NCBI GenBank assembly: GCA_022361535.1
Contig: JAKSAU010000309.1
Coordinates: forward strand, 1-21,961
Source: Desulfobacterales bacterium
Lineage (GTDB): Bacteria; Desulfobacterota; Desulfobacteria; Desulfobacterales; Desulfobacteraceae
DNA length: 21,961 bases
Reading direction: 5' to 3'
Both the position numbers and the translations under genes were made by a program. Positions 2,486 to 15,789 of this stretch are shown here, piece by piece (within the stretch, counting starts at the first letter, position 1; each line of letters begins with the position of its first letter). The notes below the pieces were generated by a model. That model had not been told where the DNA came from and made no database searches. It saw only the letters and a program-made list of their open reading frames with translations.

Positions 2486-3823
2486 TTAGGATCCCACGAC
2501 CCTTACCTGGGCAAACTGCCGGTGTCCGTCCCGGGTGCCGTGGAATCCAAGACCACTTTCTTTTGCCCCAACCCATGGGGCATTACCGCTACCCACACCC
2601 TGGTTAATACCGATCATTCCGGCCTCAAGACGATCTGCCACATCTGCGGCCTCTTCTTTACCAAACACGACAGCCCCCAAGCCGTAGGGGCTGTTATTGG
2701 CCCGGCGGACAGCCTCTTCAACATGCTTGAACCGGCTGATGGCCGCCACAGGGCCAAAGGTTTCTTCCTGCTCCATGACCATATCTTCGCTCATGTCTGC
2801 AATAACCGTGGGGTGAATATAAGGAGCGGACTGGTCGGCACCGCCTAACAGAATACGCGCCCCTTTGGCCTGTGCGTCCCGAATATGCTCCAGGATCATG
2901 GCGTGCTGTCTGTCATTAACAATGGGGCCCACGTTAACCCCTGGCATGTCCCAGGGTCCTGCTTTATATAAAGCGGCAATGTCAGCTACCCTGGATTCAA
3001 ACTGATCTGCAATCTTTTCATCCACATAAATCCGTTCCGTGGAAGTACACATCTGGCCTGCATTTTCAAATGAACTGCCCACAGCAAACCGTGCGGCTGC
3101 CTCAACATCTGCATCTGACAGAACGATCATGGGGTCATTGCCCCCAAGTTCCATGACAAGCCGTTTGATGCCGCCGGCCGCCCTGGCCATGATGTCTTTT
3201 CCCGCAGCCCTTGACCCTGTAAATGCAATGATGTTTACCTGGCTTTCCACAAGCACCCGGCCTTGGACACCTGTGCCATGGACAATCTGGAGCGCATGCT
3301 CGGGCAGCACCTGGTTCAACAGGCGGACAAAAAGGTCTGCTACCAAAGGCGTTTCCTCAGAAGGTTTGAACACAACCGGATTGCCTGCCATCAGGGCCGG
3401 CACAATGAGGTTGTTGGCCATGGCCAACGGATAGTTCCATGGCGAAATCACTGCTGCTACACCCAGGGGCCTGTATTCGATTGTTGTCCCGTTACCCACG
3501 GATTTCGGCTGGAGTGCTGCTTGGGCTTCTTTGGCAATATATGGACCTCCGTAAACCGCACCTTGAACTTCTCCGGAGGCACGTCGAATGTCCTTTCCCA
3601 TTTCCCGGCTGACCAGTTCCGCCAGTTCCCCAGCCTTTGATTCAGCCGCAGACCATGCCTTTTCAATCAGGGAAAGCCGTCCGTCAAGTCCCAGCTTCAG
3701 CCAGTCGAGCGCAAATTTGCGGGCACGAGCTACACATTCGTTTATTTCGTCAGGGGAAGAGACTTTTACCTCTCCTAATTTTTCGCCTGTGGCCGGGTTG
3801 TATGATGCCAGTATATTTTCCAT
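2486..3823 (-). CDS. NAD(P)-dependent aldehyde dehydrogenase
   Basis: A 445-residue member of the ALDH superfamily, oxidising an aldehyde to the acid with NAD(P)+. Seen: PWNYP in the cofactor-binding half, FKPSEETP, IAFTGSRAAG (Rossmann Gly motif), the general-base Glu in VMELGGNDP, the nucleophile Cys in NAGQMCTSTERIYV, and EETFGPV near the C-terminus. It is a little shorter than typical 470-490-residue members but has all catalytic elements; the overall look is closest to succinate-semialdehyde dehydrogenase types. The start is supported by AAGGAG 7 bases before the ATG. It follows the radical SAM gene by 19 bases on the same strand, so the two are probably co-transcribed under the TetR-type operator at 5014-5033. 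The aldehyde substrate is unknown. Confidence 0.93.
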   Translation of the reverse strand: MENILASYNPATGEKLGEVKVSSPDEINECVARARKFALDWLKLGLDGRLSLIEKAWSAAESKAGELAELVSREMGKDIRRASGEVQGAVYGGPYIAKEAQAALQPKSVGNGTTIEYRPLGVAAVISPWNYPLAMANNLIVPALMAGNPVVFKPSEETPLVADLFVRLLNQVLPEHALQIVHGTGVQGRVLVESQVNIIAFTGSRAAGKDIMARAAGGIKRLVMELGGNDPMIVLSDADVEAAARFAVGSSFENAGQMCTSTERIYVDEKIADQFESRVADIAALYKAGPWDMPGVNVGPIVNDRQHAMILEHIRDAQAKGARILLGGADQSAPYIHPTVIADMSEDMVMEQEETFGPVAAISRFKHVEEAVRRANNSPYGLGAVVFGKEEAADVADRLEAGMIGINQGVGSGNAPWVGAKESGLGFHGTRDGHRQFAQVRVVGS

Positions 3824-3842
3824 TTTGTACTCCTTAAGGTTC

Positions 3843-4997
3843 TTATATAAACCGCTTCATGATGGTGCTGGTAAATTCATTCACATTTTCAGGGGTAATA
3901 CCAAACTGCTGAATGGTTTTATCCAGTCGGGCAGTCATTCCTGGATTATCCATATCTGCCAAAGAGGTGAGAATCCCGGTGCGTCTGCCGACCATGAACC
4001 TCATCTGGTCCTCGGGCAACAGGGCCAGAAACCTTCTGATGGGTTCAGTTATCTTTTGCTTATCATCCGGCAGTACCCCGTCAACTTCCTGGAAGAGGTT
4101 CAGAATATGGTCACTTTTTACAGCAGAGGCTATCCCTTCTAAGTGGTCGAGCATCATCAGCAACTCTTCTGCCGCTTGAACATCATTGAGCGTGGTGAAA
4201 AGGCCGTCGCGAACGTCCTTTGCAAGGTCACTAAAATCCGTAACCGCAAGGGTCCTGATACGTATGAAATCAGGGTTTATCTGGTTTAAGGCATCAGCCG
4301 TTTCCAGTGCATTGGACGTTGAGAATTCTTGTCCGCCAAGTCCCGGCATAAAATACTCGGACAGTTCGATCCCGGCGCGTTTCACCCGCTGACCTGCCTT
4401 GATATGAGTTGCCTTATCCACACCTTTTTTCACAAATTTAAGCACCTCATCTGATGCCGATTCCATTCCGATATGGATACGGTTGAGGCCTTCTTTTGCA
4501 AGGCGCACCATGTCTGCATCGCTTATTCGGGCAATGGTATGTGATCTTGCATAGGAAGTGATCCGCTGGATCTCAGGAAACGTCTGTCTTAAAAAGCTCA
4601 GAGTCTCAACAAGGTCATCCGGTTTTACAATAAGGGTGTTGGCATCCTGCAAAAAAACAGATTGCATGCCTCCCCTGTACCAGTTAAGGGCAGCGTGAAA
4701 TGCTGTCTGGTCCTGGCCGTCCTCTTCTCTAAGTTTGTCCATAAGTGTTTTGGAAACAGCCATCTGCGGTGTCATCTCATGGCGGATATCGTCAATATAT
4801 TCCTTTAACCTGGTGATATCCTTTTTAATGTGGTCCACAGGCCGTATGCTGAACTTTTCTCCTTTGTAGAGTCCGCAGAACTTACAACGGTTCCATGGAC
4901 AGTTCCGTGTAATTCTAAGCATCAGGCTTCCAGCCTCGCTTGGCGGCCGGATGGGACCAACTTCAAATCCTGTATATGTTTCTTCTTTCATATTCAT
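3843..4997 (-). CDS. radical SAM protein with noncanonical CX4CX2C cluster motif
   Basis: A 384-residue protein of the radical SAM superfamily, which uses a [4Fe-4S] cluster and S-adenosylmethionine for radical chemistry. The cluster cysteines are in RNCPWNRCKFCGLYKG: C33, C38 and C41, giving CX4CX2C instead of the usual CX3CX2C. A later HIGMESASDEVLKFVKKG segment is the typical GxE/substrate-pocket strand of Elp3/MiaB-like radical SAM barrels, and MPGLGGQEFS follows. The C-terminal 100 residues are helical and unrecognised. The start is the first ATG of a close pair, with GGGGAG six bases upstream. It lies downstream of tetR and upstream of the aldehyde dehydrogenase on one strand. The reaction is unknown. 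Confidence 0.88.
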   Translation of the reverse strand: MNMKEETYTGFEVGPIRPPSEAGSLMLRITRNCPWNRCKFCGLYKGEKFSIRPVDHIKKDITRLKEYIDDIRHEMTPQMAVSKTLMDKLREEDGQDQTAFHAALNWYRGGMQSVFLQDANTLIVKPDDLVETLSFLRQTFPEIQRITSYARSHTIARISDADMVRLAKEGLNRIHIGMESASDEVLKFVKKGVDKATHIKAGQRVKRAGIELSEYFMPGLGGQEFSTSNALETADALNQINPDFIRIRTLAVTDFSDLAKDVRDGLFTTLNDVQAAEELLMMLDHLEGIASAVKSDHILNLFQEVDGVLPDDKQKITEPIRRFLALLPEDQMRFMVGRRTGILTSLADMDNPGMTARLDKTIQQFGITPENVNEFTSTIMKRFI

Positions 4998-5013
4998 ATG
5001 CCTCTCCCCATAT

Positions 5014-5033
5014 TACCTACTAATAGATAGGCA
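5014..5033. promoter_or_regulatory. predicted TetR operator before the radical SAM gene
   Basis: TACCTACTAATAGATAGGCA matches the 20-base site upstream of tetR (5622-5641) at 16 of 20 positions. One pair of differences is compensatory, preserving the dyad (C/G against T/A at positions 3 and 18). It lies 17 bases before the radical SAM ATG, where bound repressor could block transcription. Confidence 0.7.
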
Positions 5034-5049
5034 ACAGTTTGAAAAAATT

Positions 5050-5619
5050 TTATGCTTCCAAGGACTGGATCATCATCTGTGTGGCAGCATTAAACGCCTC
5101 AACACCACCTTTTACCCTTGACGCAATCTGCACGCCCACAAGAAAAGAAAAATACGCATAACCGGCATTTTCATTGCTACCGGTAAAAGCAAGGGAACCT
5201 TCCTCCCTGCCCTGCCTGAAAACTGACGAATAAATGGCAACTGTGCGCTCAAGTGTATTTTCAAGTTTTTTACAGGATGCATCTTCCAAGGTATTCATGT
5301 CCGAACTGACCATCCCGACCAGGCAAAGCTTATTTTTGCTTAATCCATCGGCAAAGACGCCAGCAATAAGGCGAAGCTTTTGTGGTGCTGAACAATCACT
5401 GTCTGCAATGATCTGGTATCTGCCGCCGTAATCAGCATCGCACCGGGCCAGAAGTGCATCCACCATATCCTTTTTCTGGGGGAAATGGTAATGGATGCTT
5501 GCTTTGCGGATTCCCACGGCATCGCTGATGTGTTTGTAACTCATTGCATTGATGCCCACGCGCCGGACCAGATCTTCTGCCACATCTAGTATATTTGTTT
5601 TTGTATCTGTCATAACCAT
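5050..5619 (-). CDS. TetR/AcrR-family transcriptional repressor
   Basis: A one-domain-plus-ligand-pocket regulator. The N-terminal HTH is clear: NILDVAEDLVRRVGINAMSYKHISDAVGIRKASIHYHFPQKKDMVDALL, with the hallmark YHF after the recognition helix. The C-terminal ligand domain is unclassified and carries several Cys. The frame stays open to a TTG at 5631, but that codon lies inside a palindromic operator, so I place the start at the ATG at 5619 (MVMTDTK); the ATG at 5613 is also possible, and no strong ribosome-binding site decides between them. Near-identical palindromes before this gene and before the downstream radical SAM gene indicate autoregulation and control of the radical SAM-aldehyde dehydrogenase pair. 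The ligand is unknown; a substrate aldehyde or its precursor is a guess. Confidence 0.92.
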   Translation of the reverse strand: MVMTDTKTNILDVAEDLVRRVGINAMSYKHISDAVGIRKASIHYHFPQKKDMVDALLARCDADYGGRYQIIADSDCSAPQKLRLIAGVFADGLSKNKLCLVGMVSSDMNTLEDASCKKLENTLERTVAIYSSVFRQGREEGSLAFTGSNENAGYAYFSFLVGVQIASRVKGGVEAFNAATQMMIQSLEA

Positions 5620-5621
5620 TC

Positions 5622-5641
5622 TATCTACCAATAGGTAGACA
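5622..5641. promoter_or_regulatory. predicted TetR operator before tetR (autoregulation)
   Basis: TATCTACCAATAGGTAGACA contains the perfect dyad TCTACC-AATA-GGTAGA. It ends two bases before the likely tetR start codon and resembles the CTACC/GGTAG-type palindromes bound by TetR-family proteins. It is the partner of the 5014-5033 site. Confidence 0.75.
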
Positions 5642-9295: not shown

Positions 9296-10089
9296 AGCGC
9301 CTGAATTGCCTTATAGATTTTATTTGCAACCTTATCAAACCCTGCTGGTGTCGGGTGTATTTCGTTGCGCCATTCATCTTCTGCAACACAACCGTGTGTA
9401 TCAACAACAATAAGGTTATCCTTATATTTTTTCCCAACCTTATTTAACGATCGTTTGAAGCGCTTTAAAATGCTATGGATGATTTTTTTCTGGTCATTAT
9501 AATCATGGATCTTCTTGTTTTCCATGTACGGATACATCCATGATTTTCCCATTGGAATAATGTCAAACAGTTCAAATCCTTCTTTAGATGGAAGCGCCAG
9601 GTCATAGGTGTGGGTGATCACTTTAAACTTGGGTTTGAGGTCTAAAATCCGTTCCATCATTTCCATATAGACAAGTTCAAGTTGCTGGATCTTGATGTCT
9701 AAATGGTCTTTATTGATGCACGCCTTCCAATCCATACTCCCCTTTTTCTCATTGATCAGAAACCCGAAATCATACCGTCCTACAAGGTCATTTCCGCCCC
9801 CGGAGAATAACATTGCATCAAAATCCATGTGTTTCAGGCGCTTAAGCAGCGACAGTTTCTGGTCTCCTGACATCATGTCAGCCGCTTCATCCCCGTTTCT
9901 GCTGGTGTTCAGAATGGCAAGACCTGGTTTGTCGGCCAGATGGTCAATTATGTTGGCATCCTTGCCAAAAAAGTAGAATCTTCTGGGGTAGGCAAACCAG
10001 GAATCACCTTCTGCTAGAAGTTTCGTATCGTTGGGATGGTTCTCGATATGCTTTTTAAATTCAACGGTATCGACTGTCTCAAAACCCAT
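9292..10089 (-). CDS. SGNH/GDSL-fold hydrolase
   Basis: A 265-residue protein with the SGNH hydrolase blocks: GDSW with nucleophile S30 (block I), a block II Gly around SRNGDEA (G66), GGGND with N100 (block III), and H245 in NEIHPTPAGF (block V). In block V the position normally holding the catalytic Asp (DxxH) is N242. No signal peptide or membrane segment is visible, so it is probably cytoplasmic. Substrates of SGNH enzymes range over lipids, acyl-CoA and acetylated sugars, and this one cannot be assigned. AAGGAG lies 7-8 bases before the ATG. The 3' end overlaps that of the cyclase gene, and no terminator fits between them, so transcripts from the two strands probably overlap. Confidence 0.85.
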   Translation of the reverse strand: MGFETVDTVEFKKHIENHPNDTKLLAEGDSWFAYPRRFYFFGKDANIIDHLADKPGLAILNTSRNGDEAADMMSGDQKLSLLKRLKHMDFDAMLFSGGGNDLVGRYDFGFLINEKKGSMDWKACINKDHLDIKIQQLELVYMEMMERILDLKPKFKVITHTYDLALPSKEGFELFDIIPMGKSWMYPYMENKKIHDYNDQKKIIHSILKRFKRSLNKVGKKYKDNLIVVDTHGCVAEDEWRNEIHPTPAGFDKVANKIYKAIQAL

Positions 10090-10329: not shown

Positions 10330-11454
10330 TTACAAATGGACTTTTCCATAAAGCTTTCTCTGGGCCCTGAAATTCATGGCAATGTAAACCAGTTTTGAAA
10401 ATGCGGCCCCAAAAAGAATATACTGCGGTTTTGGCAGGAACAGCGCCAGGATTGCTATCACGAACATAACCAGGGTGTTGAGAATAATATATCCTCTGTA
10501 TTCGGGGCGATTCACGTAATAAGCGGTTTGCTTGCCAAAATAGAATGTCCCGACACCCACCATTACCATGATCCTGAAATCACTTATGGCCAGATCACCC
10601 AGTATGGCGTGGCGAATCATATTGGCCAGCACAGCAAATGAAATATAGGTGGACAACTGGGAAAACAATATCGCATCCCCGTTTTTATCCCTTTCCGACT
10701 CAATGAGCAGTGGGAATGAATCAAAATACATCCACCAGATCATGCATATAAAAAGGAACCCGCAGATCACTGTCGCTGTTGTAAGAGTGTCCCAGTTCAT
10801 ATCAGAAAGGCCATATGAAATTGAGATAACCGATTCCCCCAAAAGTATGATTGCCAAAAGCCCTACCCGTTCTACCAAGTGATCCCTGTCCACGGGTATA
10901 ACATGCTTGACGATGAGCTGCCTGCCAACAATATCGAACAAAATCCCAAGGTAAAAAATGACGATGGCAAAGGAAAATGTAAAAAATACCGCGCTCATGC
11001 TGATAAGGGCCCCTATGGTAAAGGTAAGACCCATGCTCTTTGCAAACCCTTTCTTTTCAGGGTATTGGCCGGCAGCAGAAAAATACAGTACTGCGATAAT
11101 GAGCCGGGCAGTCCCGTATGCAAGCATAAACGGAACATAGCTGCCTGCCAGATCTTCTTTAAGGGTGATGGCACAGAGCATGATAATGGCCATAAGCAGA
11201 AGGGTAACCACCCGGTGGGGCCGGCTGTCGGAATCAAACCGGTTGCTGTAAACCATATGCCCGACCCAGATCCACCACATGGGGATAAATGTCAGTATAA
11301 ACGAAAACCAGACATGCCCTTCGAGGTGGCCATGGTGGGTGTGGACCAAAAAATGGGTCAGTTTTCCCAAAGCCACTACAAAAATCAGGTCAAAGAAAAG
11401 TTCCAGCCATGTGGCCTGTCTCGGTTCTAAATAGAGTAATTTTTTACCAGCCAT
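10330..11454 (-). CDS. LtrA-family (low temperature requirement A-like) membrane protein
   Basis: A 374-residue polytopic inner-membrane protein. It has the family hallmarks TWLELFFDLIFVVAL at the N-terminus, a HRV-containing segment after the second helix, and ERVGLLAIILLGESVISI in the middle. There are about nine or ten hydrophobic helices and a short basic C-terminal tail. The molecular role of this family is not established; the name comes from Listeria genetics. AAAGG lies about 8 bases before the ATG. It is 90 bases downstream of the DsbA-like selenoprotein gene on the same strand, so read-through from that operon is possible but not shown. Confidence 0.88.
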   Translation of the reverse strand: MAGKKLLYLEPRQATWLELFFDLIFVVALGKLTHFLVHTHHGHLEGHVWFSFILTFIPMWWIWVGHMVYSNRFDSDSRPHRVVTLLLMAIIMLCAITLKEDLAGSYVPFMLAYGTARLIIAVLYFSAAGQYPEKKGFAKSMGLTFTIGALISMSAVFFTFSFAIVIFYLGILFDIVGRQLIVKHVIPVDRDHLVERVGLLAIILLGESVISISYGLSDMNWDTLTTATVICGFLFICMIWWMYFDSFPLLIESERDKNGDAILFSQLSTYISFAVLANMIRHAILGDLAISDFRIMVMVGVGTFYFGKQTAYYVNRPEYRGYIILNTLVMFVIAILALFLPKPQYILFGAAFSKLVYIAMNFRAQRKLYGKVHL

Positions 11455-11544: not shown

Positions 11545-12162
11545 TCATGTATGCTTCTGTTTTTGTGCCAATTTGTTGAGTATTTTTCTGAAATTTTCGA
11601 TGGGCTCAGCACCTGTCACAGTCCCATATCCTTCAATGACAAATGTGGGAGCAGAGGAAATCATGTTTTTCTTTGCTGCAAGTGTAGTCTCATCCAACAC
11701 CGTTTTGTATGTTCCTGCAGCCAGTTCCCTTTCAAGTTGTTCCGTATCCAACTCAGCCCGCTCTGCGATATCAAGGATCACTTTTGTATCGCCTATATCT
11801 TTACAATCTGTGAAAAAGGCTTTGAAGACAGCGTCATGAAATGCCTCATACCGTCCATGCTGCTTGGCGAATTCACCTGCCTGCATGGCTTTTGAGGAAT
11901 TGCTCATCAGTTCTTGAGGACCGAATTTCAATCCCATGGGAAAAGCCCTGGCATTCAATTGCCGCCAGAAGGCGATGGGGTTCATTCCCGGGAAATAATC
12001 CTTCCACAACACCCCTTTTTCAGGTGTGTCCGGATGGATTTCAAAAGGCAGCCATTCGTCGTCAATGGGAAATTCTTTTTTTAATTCGTCGATAATACCT
12101 TTACCGATAAAACAAAACGGTCAGATATAATCGGAATAGATTTGCATTTTAACGGGTTCCAT
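11545..12162 (-). CDS. DsbA/FrnE-family thiol oxidoreductase, selenoprotein (UPFC active site)
   Basis: The frame from the ATG at 12162 (AAGGAG 7 bases upstream) reads MEPVKMQIYSDYI, then UGA (12123-12121), then PFCFIGKGIIDEL and on to a normal stop, giving 205 residues with the UGA read through. In the DsbA/FrnE family this position is the first Cys of the CPxC active site (YVCPWCFIGK), so the protein is read as a selenocysteine enzyme U14-P-F-C17. The later SAPTFVI is the cis-Pro loop before the last strands of the thioredoxin fold. A SECIS-like hairpin follows the UGA. Without Sec, translation would stop after 13 residues and the start at 12012 would lack the active site. No signal peptide is visible, so it is cytoplasmic. 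It is the last gene of the mdaB-like operon, 11 bases after the Old Yellow Enzyme gene. Confidence 0.9.
12089..12107 (-). promoter_or_regulatory. SECIS-like hairpin of the DsbA-family selenoprotein
   Basis: Directly 3' of the UGA the mRNA can form a 7-bp stem (UCGGUAA with UUAUCGA, one G-U pair) capped by the loop AGGUA, spanning +14 to +32 after the UGA. Bacterial SECIS elements, as in E. coli fdhF, have a short stem with GGU in the apical loop at about this distance; SelB binds it. The loop G22-G23-U24 fits this well. Confidence 0.75.
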
Positions 12163-12173
12163 GAGTTTTCTCC

Positions 12174-13373
12174 TTATTCGTTCAGCACACATACCGTCGG
12201 TTGGTTGCCGTATCTCATCAAACATTCATTGCAGGATATACACGCAGGTTCGACAGACTTATCTTTTGCCCATTGATTGGGAAGATCCGGTTCAGACAGG
12301 ATCGTCCGGCAAAGGCCAAAAGCCACCACATCAGGATTAATGTCCATCACCTGCTGCATCACTTTGGTATCCCGGTTCCCACCGGTCAGGATCATGGGAA
12401 TATCCAAGGCACGATCAATAGCTTGAGCATCCTTTGCAAAATAAGACTGCAGGCTTGTATCATCACTGATTTCCGGGCGTATGGGCAGATTTTCAGGCGC
12501 ACTCATCAGGTTGCCGCCGCTGATATCAAGGGCTGTCACCCCTCTTTTGGCAAGACCTTTGGCAACATAGATGCCTTCATCCAGCGTCATGCCTTCTCTT
12601 TCCAGGTAATCCTGGCCGTGGATTTTGGCAACCACAGGATAATCTTCTCCCACAGCCATTCTTACGGCCTCGGTGATCTCAAAAATGATCCGGGCACGGT
12701 TCTCAATAGATCCGCCATATTCATCTGTTCGTTTATTAAAATGGGGAACCAAAAACTGGTTGAGCATAAAATTATGTACAAAATGCAGCTCAACTGCATC
12801 AAACCCTGCTTTTTGCGCCCTTGCCGCTGCCTGGGCCATCTCTTTTACGGCCTGTTGGATATCCTCTTTTGTCATAGCCTTGGGCGTGACTTTGGTAAAG
12901 GGATGGGGTATGGCAGACGGTCCCCATATTTCACGCTCCTTGACTTTGTACCCGGACATTGAACCTGCATACCCGATCTGGAGACAGGCCTTTGCCCCGT
13001 TTTTCTGCATTTTTTGGGCAAGTGTTTTAAACGCCGGGATCTGTGCATCATCATAGAATCCCAAAGCCGCATGAAAGGGCTGATCCTGTTTGTTGATATA
13101 GGCAAGCCCTGTAATGATCAGGGAGGCCCCGCCTTCTGCCACCTGCTCATATACCTTTAACAGTTGTGGTGTGGGCATACCATTCTCATCCGCCATTTCC
13201 ATGGACGTGGAGCTGCGTATAATCCTGTTTTTCAATTTTAACGTTCCAATTTTAACCGGATCAAACAGATCTCTTTTGGTCAGTGCATACACAGGTTTGG
13301 CAATGGGACCAAGGCCGGCTGCTACAGCACCTGCCCCCAGTATTTTCAAGGTCTCCCTTCTGGAAAAATTCAT
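12174..13373 (-). CDS. Tat-exported Old Yellow Enzyme-family NADH:flavin oxidoreductase with C-terminal Cys cluster
   Basis: A 399-residue FMN-dependent TIM-barrel ene/quinone reductase. The N-terminus MNFSRRETLKILGAGAVAAGLG is a twin-arginine signal (R5, R6), so export of the folded flavoprotein is predicted. The OYE fold is shown by FDPVKIGTLKLKNRII, the HFVH active-site pair in ELHFVHNFMLNQFLVP, DEYGGSIENRARI, and the phosphate-binding ILTGGNRD. The C-terminus carries C378, C381, C384 and C395 (CX2CX2CX10C), like the [4Fe-4S] ligands of the 2,4-dienoyl-CoA reductase / trimethylamine dehydrogenase branch, but it stops there: the second flavin/NAD domain of those enzymes is absent. AAGGAGG precedes the ATG. 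It lies in the operon mdaB-like, cupin-like, this gene, selenoprotein. Confidence 0.9.
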   Translation of the reverse strand: MNFSRRETLKILGAGAVAAGLGPIAKPVYALTKRDLFDPVKIGTLKLKNRIIRSSTSMEMADENGMPTPQLLKVYEQVAEGGASLIITGLAYINKQDQPFHAALGFYDDAQIPAFKTLAQKMQKNGAKACLQIGYAGSMSGYKVKEREIWGPSAIPHPFTKVTPKAMTKEDIQQAVKEMAQAAARAQKAGFDAVELHFVHNFMLNQFLVPHFNKRTDEYGGSIENRARIIFEITEAVRMAVGEDYPVVAKIHGQDYLEREGMTLDEGIYVAKGLAKRGVTALDISGGNLMSAPENLPIRPEISDDTSLQSYFAKDAQAIDRALDIPMILTGGNRDTKVMQQVMDINPDVVAFGLCRTILSEPDLPNQWAKDKSVEPACISCNECLMRYGNQPTVCVLNE

Positions 13374-13405
13374 TCTTCCTCCTTAAACTGCCGCTTTCTT
13401 CGGCA

Positions 13406-13549
13406 TTAATGTGTAGATGTCATGCTCTCAACGATAATGGCCCGGACGCGGACATGTTCATTTTCCATCAGAACTTTATAGGTATCCGGAGAGGCTTCTG
13501 CAGCTGGCGGTGCAGATATGTTACCTTCCTGTATTGTCATTTGTGCCAT
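13406..13549 (-). CDS. 47-residue cupin-like small protein
   Basis: A short frame with a strong ribosome site (AAAGGAG, 8 bases before ATG). It sits 13 bases after the mdaB-like stop and 32 bases before the Old Yellow Enzyme start, so it is placed as a true operon member. The product MAQMTIQEGN...YKVLMENEHVRVRAIIVESMTSTH ends where the start of small cupin proteins (YKVLLENERVRVLE...) would continue into the metal-binding barrel. It could therefore be the remnant of a truncated cupin or a genuine small protein. A weak hairpin (TGCCG-CGGCA) lies just after the stop. Confidence 0.55.
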   Translation of the reverse strand: MAQMTIQEGNISAPPAAEASPDTYKVLMENEHVRVRAIIVESMTSTH

Positions 13550-13562
13550 TACTCTTTCTCCT

Positions 13563-14114
13563 TTAGGCAAAAACGGTTTTCAAATGGTCCAGAAAGCGCA
13601 CTTCATCCCTGGCAAAATCCGGCTCATGGATCACGTTATGGCATGAAAAATGGGGGAGTTCCTCAAACCCGCAGAAGGTGTTGGTCTTTACCATGGGCAG
13701 CAGGACATCATTGGCAGATAGTTCGCCAAAGAATGCGTCTTGGTCTGAAAATGCATCCACAGGCGCATTCCATGTGGTGGACAGCATGAACTTTTTGCCT
13801 TTCATAAGGCCGCCAGATCCGTAACCATGGCCAGCAAACCCGAAAAACTCGTGAACCTGGTAAACATCGTCAAGATACTTTTTCAAGGATGCGGGCATCA
13901 TAAACCAGTAAACAGGATATTGAAAAATGACCACGTCCGCTTTTTTGAATTTTTCAATTTCCTCATTCACCTCATATCCACTTTCAATGTCCGTGGTCAG
14001 GATTTCGTAACCTTCTTTAAGATACGAAATCCCGGCATCAAAAAGTCCTTTGTTGTATGTACCCTTTGCCAGTTCATTGGTTTCCTTGCCCAAAATCATC
14101 AGTATTGTCTTCAT
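13563..14114 (-). CDS. MdaB-like NAD(P)H quinone oxidoreductase (flavodoxin-2 fold)
   Basis: A flavodoxin-fold FAD/FMN reductase of the MdaB/NQO1 family, which carries out two-electron reduction of quinones and so avoids semiquinone radicals. Seen: MKTILMILGKE start strand, a DVVIFQYPVYWFMMPASLKKYLDDV segment typical of MdaB, GLMKGKKFMLSTTWNAP, and the C-terminal CHNVIHEPDF. The frame opens at 14126, but GGAGAG within the first codons lies properly spaced before the ATG at 14114, so I take that start (183 residues). No signal peptide is visible; it is cytoplasmic. It is the first gene of the operon running to the DsbA-like selenoprotein, with the HxlR-type operator about 125 bases upstream. 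Confidence 0.9.
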   Translation of the reverse strand: MKTILMILGKETNELAKGTYNKGLFDAGISYLKEGYEILTTDIESGYEVNEEIEKFKKADVVIFQYPVYWFMMPASLKKYLDDVYQVHEFFGFAGHGYGSGGLMKGKKFMLSTTWNAPVDAFSDQDAFFGELSANDVLLPMVKTNTFCGFEELPHFSCHNVIHEPDFARDEVRFLDHLKTVFA

Positions 14115-14223
14115 TTGTCTCTCCATCTGATACGTTTTTTGTCTTGTTTTCTTGGGGTTGCTGAGTCATTCCCGTCAAGCATCAAGGAAGACTCATTCTT
14201 CAATTGTTGAAATTATAAATAAT

Positions 14224-14279
14224 ATTATAAAAAAGAAAAGTACCTACTTTAAAGTTGTATACATACTAAATAGTAAGAT
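14224..14279 (-). promoter_or_regulatory. promoter and predicted HxlR operator of the mdaB-like operon
   Basis: On the minus strand TATAAT (14224-14229) is a good -10 box with only a poor -35. Immediately upstream, 14238-14279 aligns without gaps to 15288-15329 in front of hxlR: 28 of 42 bases are identical. Both have TACNTAC half-sites 19 bases apart (here TACCTAC at 14241 and TACATAC at 14260), the second opening a dyad TACATACT-AAAT-AGTAAGAT. The site would overlap the -35 region. Confidence 0.65.
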
Positions 14280-14571
14280 TTATTAATTATCAATTAGTTA
14301 AATGAAATATTTTTTTGATTTAATCCGAAAAATAATCAATTCTCCCATGATACTGACTGCAATTTCAGCCCGGTTCATTCGTCTTTTGGAATTCTCAACA
14401 AGTTGTGATGGAAAAGACGGAACAAAGGGCTGTATCCAGACGGTGACATAGCCGAAGCAAAATTACCAGGATCATACCTGCATATAGCTGATCTGACCCC
14501 GGCCCTTTCATTGGCGGCTGCCTTTTGTACCAAGAGCAGTTTTTACTTTAACCTGTCTGTTCCTTCCCATT
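14280..14571. other. intergenic region downstream of the peroxiredoxin gene
   Basis: I see no convincing gene. The left part is AT-rich; 14380-14530 is of coding-like composition but every frame is broken and unrecognised. No clear intrinsic terminator for the peroxiredoxin gene is visible. Confidence 0.5.
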
Positions 14572-15216
14572 TTATATACGGTCAAGAATATCTATAATCT
14601 GGGAAGGTTCCGGCCTGATGGTATAATCCGGATTGACTTCGGCATCAATGATTTTGCCTTTGGTATCTGCGATGAAACGCGCCGGCATGGGCAGTTGCCA
14701 GGAATCGCTTCCGTTGAACCGTTTCAGATCAATGCCGAAATTGCTGTATATCTGCTTTAATTCTTCAGGCAGGTCAGAAGTCAGTCCGAATTGTGAAGCG
14801 ACTTTGTTTTCTAAATCACAAAGGACAGGATAGGTCAGTTTGGATTTTTTAGAGACCTGTTTTGAATATTTTTCCAGTTGAGGAGAAATCACAACAAGGG
14901 ATGCCCCCCTTTTCTCAATTTCCGGATGAACTGCCTGCAGAGCTTCCAGCTCCAGGTTGCAGTACCCTCACCACACTCCTCTGTAAAAACTGACCACTAC
15001 CGGGCCTTTCTCAACTAATGCCTTAGAAGATACCCCTTCCCCATTGTGATTCAACAATGAAAACTTAGGAAGCGCCTCTCCTTTTTTTATCACATTGTCT
15101 GTTTTACCTGAATTTATCAGCGTTTCTGTTTCCCGGTGCATAACGGCAAGCGCCTCCGGGGGAATACGGCTTTCAACCTGAGCCTTCATTTGATCTATTT
15201 TTTCCTGCAGTGTCAT
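14572..15216 (-). CDS. peroxiredoxin-like (AhpC/TSA) selenoprotein with UGYC active site
   Basis: From the ATG at 15216 (AAGGAG 8 bases upstream) the protein reads to VVVSFYRGVW, then UGA (14970-14968), then GYCNLELEALQAVHPEIEKRGASLVVISP and on to a stop at 14572: 214 residues with the UGA as U83. AhpC/TSA relatives have FYRGxWCPYCNxEL here, so UGA replaces the peroxidatic Cys and the partner C86 is kept (UxxC; the usual Pro is Gly). The thioredoxin-fold core continues with YPVLCDLENKVASQFGL and MPARFIADTKGKI. Likely function: selenol-based reduction of hydroperoxides, in the cytoplasm. It is divergent from hxlR, with a shared operator between. A SECIS-like hairpin follows the UGA. Confidence 0.9.
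14934..14956 (-). promoter_or_regulatory. SECIS-like hairpin of the peroxiredoxin-like selenoprotein
   Basis: At +12 to +34 after the UGA the mRNA forms CCUG-GAGCU-GGA-AGCUC-UG-CAGG: nine base pairs, a 2-base bulge on the 3' side and a small loop starting with GG. Distance and loop guanines agree with bacterial SECIS elements. Confidence 0.75.
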
Positions 15217-15287
15217 TTTCGCATCTCCTTTTTTGAATTTGGGTGATTTACATGTGGTGGGAACTATGCTAATTTTATCATATTATC

Positions 15288-15329
15288 AAGTACTTACTTT
15301 TTTGTTTAATACTTACCCAAAGGTATGTA
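15288..15329. promoter_or_regulatory. predicted HxlR operator and hxlR promoter
   Basis: This stretch holds the half-site TACTTAC at 15291 and, 19 bases on, the dyad TACTTACC-CAAA-GGTATGTA (15310-15329, one mismatch). A weak promoter TTGTTT (15302) / TATGTA (15324) with 16-base spacing overlaps the dyad, so binding would shut off hxlR. The region is shared with the divergent peroxiredoxin gene. It matches the site before the mdaB-like operon. Confidence 0.7.
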
Positions 15330-15348
15330 ATGAAGACTGGAGGACAAT

Positions 15349-15789
15349 ATGACAGCTACATGTGATATAAAAAGAGCAGGACAAGTAGAATTCAGATGCT
15401 ATTTTCAATTGGCAATGCAAATCATCGGCGGGAAATGGAAACCAAAGGTTTTGTTTCACCTGTCTGAACATGGAACGGTCCGGTTCGGGGTTATGAAACG
15501 GGGTATCTATGGTATATCGGAAAAAATGTTGATTCAAAGCTTAAAAGAGCTTGAAAAGGACGGTCTTGTCAACCGCAAAGTCTATCGCCAGGTACCTCCC
15601 AAAGTTGAGTACTCTTTAACTGATATGGGGAAATCCTTTATCCCTGTTTTAAACGGTATGTTTGACTGGGGCAAATCTTATGCGTCTTATCTTATTTCCA
15701 AGGAGGACAGCTCCTGCCAATACTCCCCTGGCATTGTTTTCGACAATATTGACGAAATGGTAAGTGAAGAAGCTGCTCCCTCCAGCTGA
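15349..15789 (+). CDS. HxlR-family winged-helix regulator
   Basis: A 146-residue MarR/DUF24-type regulator. The family signature is C17...AMQIIGGKWKPKVLFHL, then VRFGVMKRGIYGISEKMLIQSLKELEKDGLVNRKVYRQVPPKVEYSLTDMGKSF (winged HTH). C17 lies at the place of the redox-sensing Cys of YodB/HypR/CatR-like HxlR proteins, and C123 in the C-terminal tail could be a disulfide partner. GGAGG is 5 bases before the ATG. It is divergent from the peroxiredoxin selenoprotein. The shared operator points to autoregulation and control of that gene and the mdaB-like operon, probably in response to quinones, aldehydes or other electrophiles (inference from family and context). Confidence 0.92.
   Translation: MTATCDIKRAGQVEFRCYFQLAMQIIGGKWKPKVLFHLSEHGTVRFGVMKRGIYGISEKMLIQSLKELEKDGLVNRKVYRQVPPKVEYSLTDMGKSFIPVLNGMFDWGKSYASYLISKEDSSCQYSPGIVFDNIDEMVSEEAAPSS

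Follow-up and report, generated by a model that had tools for sequence, protein, structure and literature searches.

A candidate HxlR-controlled thiol- and electrophile-stress gene cluster with two predicted selenoproteins in Desulfobacterales

We analysed a 21,961-nucleotide (nt) stretch of the Desulfobacterales bacterium assembly GCA_022361535.1 (contig JAKSAU010000309.1, the whole stretch being called the window below), in which a 4.2-kb segment comprises one regulator and two transcription units and encodes two predicted selenocysteine (Sec) enzymes. The gene of the HxlR-family regulator is divergent from that of PrxU, a peroxiredoxin (Prx)-like protein. Behind PrxU, a gap of 445 nt is followed by a close-packed minus-strand row beginning with an MdaB-like reductase, in which 13 nt separate MdaB from a cupin stub, 32 nt the stub from an Old Yellow Enzyme (OYE), 11 nt the OYE from a DsbA/FrnE-like protein (DsbA-U), and 90 nt DsbA-U from an LtrA family gene. 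Gene families were named with Pfam and NCBIfam and by sequence comparison with solved structures, and the main features, including the predicted bacterial Sec insertion sequence (bSECIS) hairpins, are as follows.

15349..15789, plus strand: HxlR/DUF24-family regulator, 146 amino acids (winged-helix domain PF01638, 105.4 bits, cut-off 20.8)
15288..15329, plus strand: predicted operator 1 (0 of 24 specified positions mismatched; 52.9 bits, external matrix)
15216-14572, minus strand: PrxU, Prx-like predicted selenoprotein, 214 amino acids, Sec83 (UxxC) (PF00578, 88.7 bits; TGA aligned with Cys)
14938..14954, minus strand: predicted bSECIS hairpin of PrxU, core GAGCTGGAAGCTC (alignment columns 17-33 from UGA)
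14238..14279, plus strand: predicted operator 2 (29.6 bits, external matrix; second-best place in the window)
14126-13563, minus strand: MdaB-like NADPH:quinone reductase (PF02525, 105.4 bits; PDB 4s24 MdaB, E 8e-38)
13549-13409 (feature 13406..13549), minus strand: 47-amino-acid cupin stub (BLASTP to the start of a protein of locus L002)
13373-12174, minus strand: OYE (PF00724, 218 bits; YqjM-like by sequence against solved structures)
12162-11545, minus strand: DsbA-U, DsbA/FrnE-like predicted selenoprotein, 205 amino acids, Sec14 (UPFC) (PF01323, 90.7 bits; PDB FrnE, E 9e-13)
12089..12107, minus strand: predicted bSECIS hairpin of DsbA-U (alignment columns 17-35 from UGA)

On sequence grounds, both UGA-interrupted genes are predicted to encode selenoproteins. 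The in-frame TGA of PrxU is codon 83, within the active-site sequence SFYRGVWUGYC (WUGYC), and that of DsbA-U is codon 14, aligned with the Cys of homologues. In a motif search of the DNA of the loci, the Sec position was occupied by TGA in 35 of 38 Prx-like rows and by TGC in the other 3; the DsbA rows comprised 25 of 32 with TGA, 6 with TGC or TGT, and one spurious motif match (L083). Across the 389 genomes of the order, 67 of the 73 Prx-like matches (E <= 1e-30) carried one or more in-frame TGA codons, as did 53 of the 63 DsbA matches (E <= 1e-25) in 395 genomes of the phylum. The hairpin codons of PrxU are GAG-CTG in all 35 UGA-containing Prx-like genes, the window included, compared with GAG at 35% of Glu and CTG at 41% of Leu codons in the rest of the same genes; these sequences are related, and naive probabilities overstate the effect. 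Three Cys homologues of PrxU carry GAA at the hairpin Glu codon. The DsbA-U stem is 95.9% paired (15 of the 25 TGA sequences aligned, 14 of them distinct) and contains a single compensatory change, located in the window itself (U-A where relatives carry C-G), a result equalled by 38 of 500 shuffles. As explanations of the TGAs, pseudogenes and chance stops were rejected on the alignment with Cys and on the codon constraint. SelB exceeded its cut-off in 8 of 10 relatives, as did tRNA-Sec (8 of 10), and among 14 control genomes the corresponding numbers were 2 and 5. In public protein sets, close full-length relatives (P0128, P0129, P0131, P0132, P0004, P0005, P0006) have W in place of Sec, presumably because the TGA was translated as Trp, and further relatives begin downstream of this residue.

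A structure model of PrxU lies near the AhpE, BCP, and ResA folds, which confirms a thioredoxin/peroxiredoxin fold and nothing more. The original prediction of a peroxiredoxin-like selenoprotein holds for the predicted Sec residue and the fold, and PrxU as a peroxiredoxin proper was rejected, as SFYRGVWUGYC lacks the PxxxTxxC motif of true peroxiredoxins. The DsbA/FrnE-like selenoprotein with UxxC agreed with its prediction in family, structural match, and alignment of the TGA; no signal peptide was apparent by eye. A second PrxU gene with one in-frame TGA lies outside the HxlR cluster in G001 (C97), G002 (C240), G004 (C36), and G761 (C332). In locus L005, on a contig labelled Nitrospirota, a DsbA homologue at 10001 aligns from residue 27 only, without the Sec site, and overlaps the end of the upstream reading frame, a possible chimera or recent join.

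HxlR-family proteins switch their DNA binding via an N-terminal Cys. The window protein matched B. subtilis HxlR among solved structures (PDB 7bze/7bzd, E 1e-30), and its Cys17 aligns with Cys11 of that protein. Cys17 was kept in 13 of 13 aligned HxlR proteins and Cys5 in all 12 that reach that column, in agreement with the sensing Cys proposed in the original prediction. PMC7835342 describes Cys11 as conserved and its equivalents in other family members as reportedly reactive with electrophiles and oxidants.

Operator 1 lies between HxlR and PrxU, 19 nt from the HxlR start and 71 nt from the PrxU start. Operator 2 is upstream of the MdaB-OYE-DsbA-U operon and overlaps the -35 element of a predicted promoter (14253-14224, minus strand), predicted promoters being no commoner in the window than in shuffles (9 found, 9.8 expected by chance). 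Both follow one layout (GTAC-n-TAC, ATAC-n-TAC, and inverted GTA-n-GTA) within an ungapped 42-mer common to the window and to the intergenic regions before HxlR or PrxU in relatives. A search with a pattern fixed at 24 positions, at most 3 mismatches being tolerated, gave 11 sites in 9 of the 389 genomes of the order, against 5 matches in 5 genomes for the reversed control; both window sites were taken into account when the columns of this pattern were picked, which makes the search partly circular. Eight of the 11 sites stand directly before HxlR (G733, G761, G004, G442, G436, G001, G002 contig 193, and G581) and one before an HxlR fragment (G002 contig 46). In G743 the site precedes PrxU and a fragment of HxlR lies about 1.1 kb away, and the second G761 site lies behind PrxU, the same relative place as operator 2 of the window. 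With 3 mismatches each, the G733, G442, and G761 sites are at the limit of the pattern, and what speaks for them is their position. When the 389 genomes were searched separately for the protein (E <= 1e-36), 8 proved to encode an HxlR at least 55% identical, in G743 as an 85-residue fragment, and all 8 belong to the 9 operator genomes (hypergeometric, 7e-16).

The scoring matrix was built from eight sites outside the window, five of them first read from intergenic DNA before HxlR or PrxU and three taken from the pattern search. Scanning the window with it gave exactly two strong sites, followed by the same two reversed (7.3 and -1.7 bits) and then by -5.5 bits. The best of 60 shuffled windows reached 1.8 bits, and none of 2000 shuffles per intergenic region attained the observed score. 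Both window operators are accordingly predicted HxlR sites, and the same operator design before both units, as originally proposed, is upheld by a matrix trained on outside genomes. A shorter pattern, used for extra sites in trans in 11 genomes, matched 15 places in 10 of them versus 16 for its reversed control, and thus yielded no secure addition to the sites already known. Three of these matches are in G442 (C303:2653, C303:6386, and C761:21285; L182, L189, L192) and have the same layout with a different half-site; one of the three precedes a different HxlR gene, transcribed divergently from an FMN-reductase-like one. This layout may be a general one of HxlR operators. In G736 (L072, 2224-2265), a PrxU gene is preceded at about 90 nt by a partial operator of 23.5 bits, and no HxlR match at E <= 1e-20 was found in that genome.

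Regarding the other enzymes of the second unit, the MdaB-like quinone reductase was confirmed, with a start more likely at 14114, preceded by the ribosome-binding site GGAGAG. The OYE assignment also held, and a CxxCxxxC-x11-C motif read by eye close to the C-terminus indicates the Fe-S type. This protein aligns with the N-terminal halves of the models for mycofactocin OYE2 and BaiCD, with scores under the respective cut-offs, and ends where the FAD/NAD domain of these models would start, so it would need an outside electron donor. Its predicted export by the twin-arginine translocation (Tat) system is less firm: the possible signal SRRETLKILG is plausible and scores 16.7 bits in Pfam against a cut-off of 22.7. 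The OYE of G733 starts without a Tat signal, and export is therefore not a shared trait. The predicted small cupin-like protein was not substantiated, being a 47-amino-acid stub without a match in the Pfam scan, which aligns only with residues 3-26 of a 108-amino-acid cupin of L002 (13 of 24 identical, BLASTP); the L002 protein itself scores 23.3 bits for Cupin_2, under the cut-off of 27.2.

Neighbourhoods of the selenoprotein genes were compared across relatives, with names checked by Pfam/NCBIfam on the proteins of L001, L002, L003, L156, L158, and L159. Among 28 loci with DsbA relatives, PrxU occurs in 4 (L001, L002, L003, L010) and the HxlR clade in 3 (L001, L002, L010). The latter three contain HxlR, DsbA-U, radical SAM, PrxU, KefF-like, KefC-like, and MdaB-like genes, and each has an SDR-like gene within the row or next to it, L002 also a cupin; KefF and KefC of L001 fall somewhat under the NCBIfam equivalog cut-offs. 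In L001 and L010, HxlR stands directly before DsbA-U. Locus L003 has, in one direction, TetR, radical SAM, DsbA-U, aldehyde dehydrogenase, and PrxU, and the radical SAM and aldehyde dehydrogenase of the window (2486-5631, behind TetR) are 56% and 63% relatives of those in L003. From these sequences, the regulators appear to have been exchanged around one gene set (HxlR versus TetR, window and L003). Other operator-bearing HxlR genes adjoin a 44-residue aldehyde dehydrogenase stretch, a radical SAM (51%), and an OYE (36%) in G733, form the order HxlR-KefF-KefC-MdaB in G436, and accompany ABM-SDR genes in G581; a nitroreductase is also among the genes beside the operator in relatives. The closest relative found, G761 (HxlR 83%, PrxU 70%), carries HxlR-PrxU with both operators. 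The original prediction would have been refuted by neighbourhoods conserved in no relative at all, and this comparison shows that conserved variants exist. Between HxlR and KefF in G436 (L157, 5910-5975), we observed a relic of a DsbA-U start with TGG as its Sec codon. On the 4.2-kb contig of G585 (L106, 905-2960), an OYE-like gene (31%) lies about 0.6 kb upstream of PrxU on the same strand, and no HxlR was found on that contig.

Two further features of the window lie outside this segment.

10330..11454, minus strand: LtrA family membrane protein (PF06772, 208 bits; 90 nt behind DsbA-U)
2486..5631, minus strand: associated module of TetR (5050-5631), radical SAM (3843-4997), and aldehyde dehydrogenase (2486-3823)

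The LtrA gene is possibly the last gene of the DsbA-U operon, and it recurs next to DsbA/radical SAM in L005 (66%) and next to an HxlR fragment in L098 (87%). Two TetR-like palindromes were seen by eye near 5009 and 5627 of the window. The 18 window proteins scanned include no catalase, superoxide dismutase, AhpD, or KefC.

Taken as a whole, the locus probably represents an HxlR-controlled thiol/electrophile-stress regulon of Desulfobacterales. Electrophilic or oxidising compounds would modify Cys17 of HxlR, perhaps together with Cys5, candidate inducers being quinones, unsaturated carbonyls, aldehydes, organic polysulfides, and thiosulfinates. The modified regulator, acting as a repressor or as an activator, would then change its hold on both operators and both units would be induced. 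The cytoplasmic selenols of PrxU and DsbA-U may reduce mixed disulfides or peroxides on proteins and small thiols, MdaB would carry out the two-electron reduction of quinones, and the possibly Tat-exported Fe-S OYE could reduce activated C=C bonds outside the cytoplasm via some donor. The shared job would be protection of the thiol pool, and not one fixed pathway, since in sister genomes this type of regulator and operator precedes genes for K+/H+ antiport (KefF-KefC), for an ABM monooxygenase accompanied by an SDR, or for radical SAM and OYE. The electrophile-defence reading is likewise strengthened because the HxlR operator elsewhere precedes KefF-KefC-MdaB, ABM-SDR, nitroreductase, and radical SAM-OYE. 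According to PMC10224563, KefF is a quinone reductase required for full KefC activity, and the KefC antiporter protects against electrophiles.

A defence against peroxide or oxygen, in which PrxU would be the main enzyme and a peroxidase, HxlR would sense peroxide, and the reductases would repair by-products, would draw on the proximity of the PrxU fold to AhpE and BCP, and on FrnE having been reported, as given in PMC7119367, to give Deinococcus resistance to oxidative stress. We consider it unlikely, given the missing PxxxTxxC of PrxU, the KefF-KefC, nitroreductase, ABM-SDR, and OYE genes beside the operator in relatives, which point to electrophiles, and the lack of catalase and superoxide dismutase among the scanned window proteins (the neighbours in relatives having been scanned only in part). 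The recurrence of OYE, SDR, aldehyde dehydrogenase, and radical SAM genes would suit a catabolic or detoxifying pathway for one unsaturated or aromatic compound, with HxlR sensing an intermediate and the selenoproteins keeping the pathway reduced, but the operator-bearing loci have no constant enzyme core, regulator and operator alone being constant, which leaves this explanation improbable.

It could also be that this HxlR governs the HxlR/PrxU unit alone and that the MdaB-OYE-DsbA-U operon answers to another HxlR of the genome. Operator 2 does score lower than operator 1 (29.6 versus 52.9 bits) and departs at its 3' end, and a second HxlR accompanies sites of the same layout in G442. Against such separate control, the two strong sites of the window lie around this HxlR at a spacing of 1 kb, the HxlR-PrxU of G761 is accompanied by such a pair as well, and the clade stands directly before DsbA-U in L001 and L010; we give this arrangement only a slim chance.

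Several results weigh against the proposed thiol/electrophile-stress regulon or its components. As to selenocysteine, the single-sequence folding energy of both SECIS regions was not significant, Rfam gave no RNA family in the window at gathering scores, and pair covariation in the PrxU stem was not above shuffles, because the stem hardly varies; the G002 draft has both selenoprotein genes, yet neither SelB nor tRNA-Sec over cut-off. When the two window operators were compared directly, their likeness was weak (at best 30 of 45 positions, where 60 shuffles gave up to 29), and the operator case therefore rests on the outside-genome matrix. A methylene bridge in the formaldehyde-sensing HxlR needs a Cys-x-Lys pair (PMC7835342), and the window protein has Phe19 at the position of its Lys13; formaldehyde sensing through a Cys-Lys bridge is accordingly unsupported. 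The exact MdaB-cupin-OYE-DsbA-U operon occurs in the window and in none of the other loci examined. The G761 contig stops 153 nt past its second operator, and searches of that draft gave neither an MdaB homologue (E <= 1e-15) nor a DsbA more than 33% identical. In G743 (L098, 1594-4741), the cluster is decayed, with TAA as the Sec codon of PrxU and with fragments of HxlR, LtrA, and radical SAM. Among 30 PrxU loci, HxlR lies within 1.5 kb in 2 (G761, G743), 3 are in clusters (G001, G002, G004), and 25 are without it; longer stretches (19 kb at most, and largely from the surroundings of these PrxU genes) added no HxlR beyond G761 and G743, and six more PrxU genes (L035, L036, L037, L097, and two in L113) had none nearby. 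HxlR is thus absent near 31 of the 36 PrxU genes examined, out of 73 matches in the order.

YodB, CatR, and QorR are redox- or electrophile-responsive regulators of the HxlR/DUF24 family. The window regulator resembles these and Bacillus HxlR and HypR in family, N-terminal Cys, and adjacent redox target genes; it differs from Bacillus HxlR in having no Lys two residues past the Cys and in targets that include selenoproteins. Allicin and a diallyl polysulfane induce the YodB, CatR, HypR, and HxlR regulons in B. subtilis, as stated in PMC6943732. The allicin-tolerance sets of Pseudomonas PfAR-1 are described in PMC7119367 as comprising osmC, sdr, tetR, frnE-like dsbA, and trx, together with ahpD, oye, 4-ot, kefF, and kefC. 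They share with the window operon the joint presence of a FrnE-like DsbA and an OYE and a thioredoxin-fold partner (trx in PfAR-1, PrxU in the window), with the sister loci SDR, KefF, and KefC, and with L003 TetR. In contrast, the window has Sec in two enzymes, HxlR as regulator, and additional radical SAM, MdaB, and LtrA genes, and its 18 scanned proteins include, unlike PfAR-1, no ahpD, osmC, glutathione reductase, kefF-kefC, or trx product. According to the same paper, sensitivity to allicin rose when frnE-like dsbA, trx, kefC, oye, or ahpD carried an insertion. It also gives two results that count on the other side: an insertion in kefF had no visible effect, and the set protected against allicin with no detectable protection against H2O2, cumene hydroperoxide, or N-ethylmaleimide. 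The analogy alone therefore lends no support to a general electrophile defence. The original prediction of an undescribed electrophile-defence unit consequently holds in part: the operator-linked genes of relatives fit it, while the exact operon was seen in the window alone among the loci examined, and the gene set resembles the Pseudomonas allicin-tolerance islands.

The selenoprotein kinds themselves are known. 'Prx-like thiol:disulfide oxidoreductase (UxxC)' and 'DsbA-like protein form 1 (UxxC)' are named as families in the available parts of PMC13188914 and PMC2398784, the latter having listed both kinds by 2008. PrxU and DsbA-U share fold family and UxxC with these, the review having several Prx-like entries to which PrxU may correspond. 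The 2026 review (PMC13188914) names the selenoprotein operons Grd, Prd, Frh-Hdr, Prx-SelW, Prx-like/AhpD-like, SAO, and Tso; in its accessible text, a cluster of the window type is not among them, 'HxlR' does not occur, and the functions of such selenoproteins are called largely uncharacterised. In the partly accessible literature searched, HxlR with selenoprotein gave Treponema work only and HxlR with selenocysteine none. The gene combination was not met there. As far as this literature shows, the parts are of known kinds and their Sec-bearing, HxlR-controlled combination was not found described.

We tentatively propose, at somewhat less than even chance, that sulfate reducers run a selenium version of the thiosulfinate/polysulfide-tolerance kit, in which HxlR would coordinate two selenol enzymes, cytoplasmic quinone reduction, and, here, enone reduction outside the cytoplasm, while the regulator (HxlR or TetR) and the accessory enzymes are swapped around a selenoprotein core. 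If this is true, selenols in place of thiols would leave the enzymes open to repair when alkylation or sulfur radicals stress the cell in sulfidic sediments. The regulator with its predicted operator would give both selenoprotein families an inducible and testable setting in thiol/electrophile stress, and the operator DNA pattern appears specific enough for mapping the regulon in new genomes. The locus may thereby offer a reason for anaerobes to keep selenium in thiol-disulfide enzymes.

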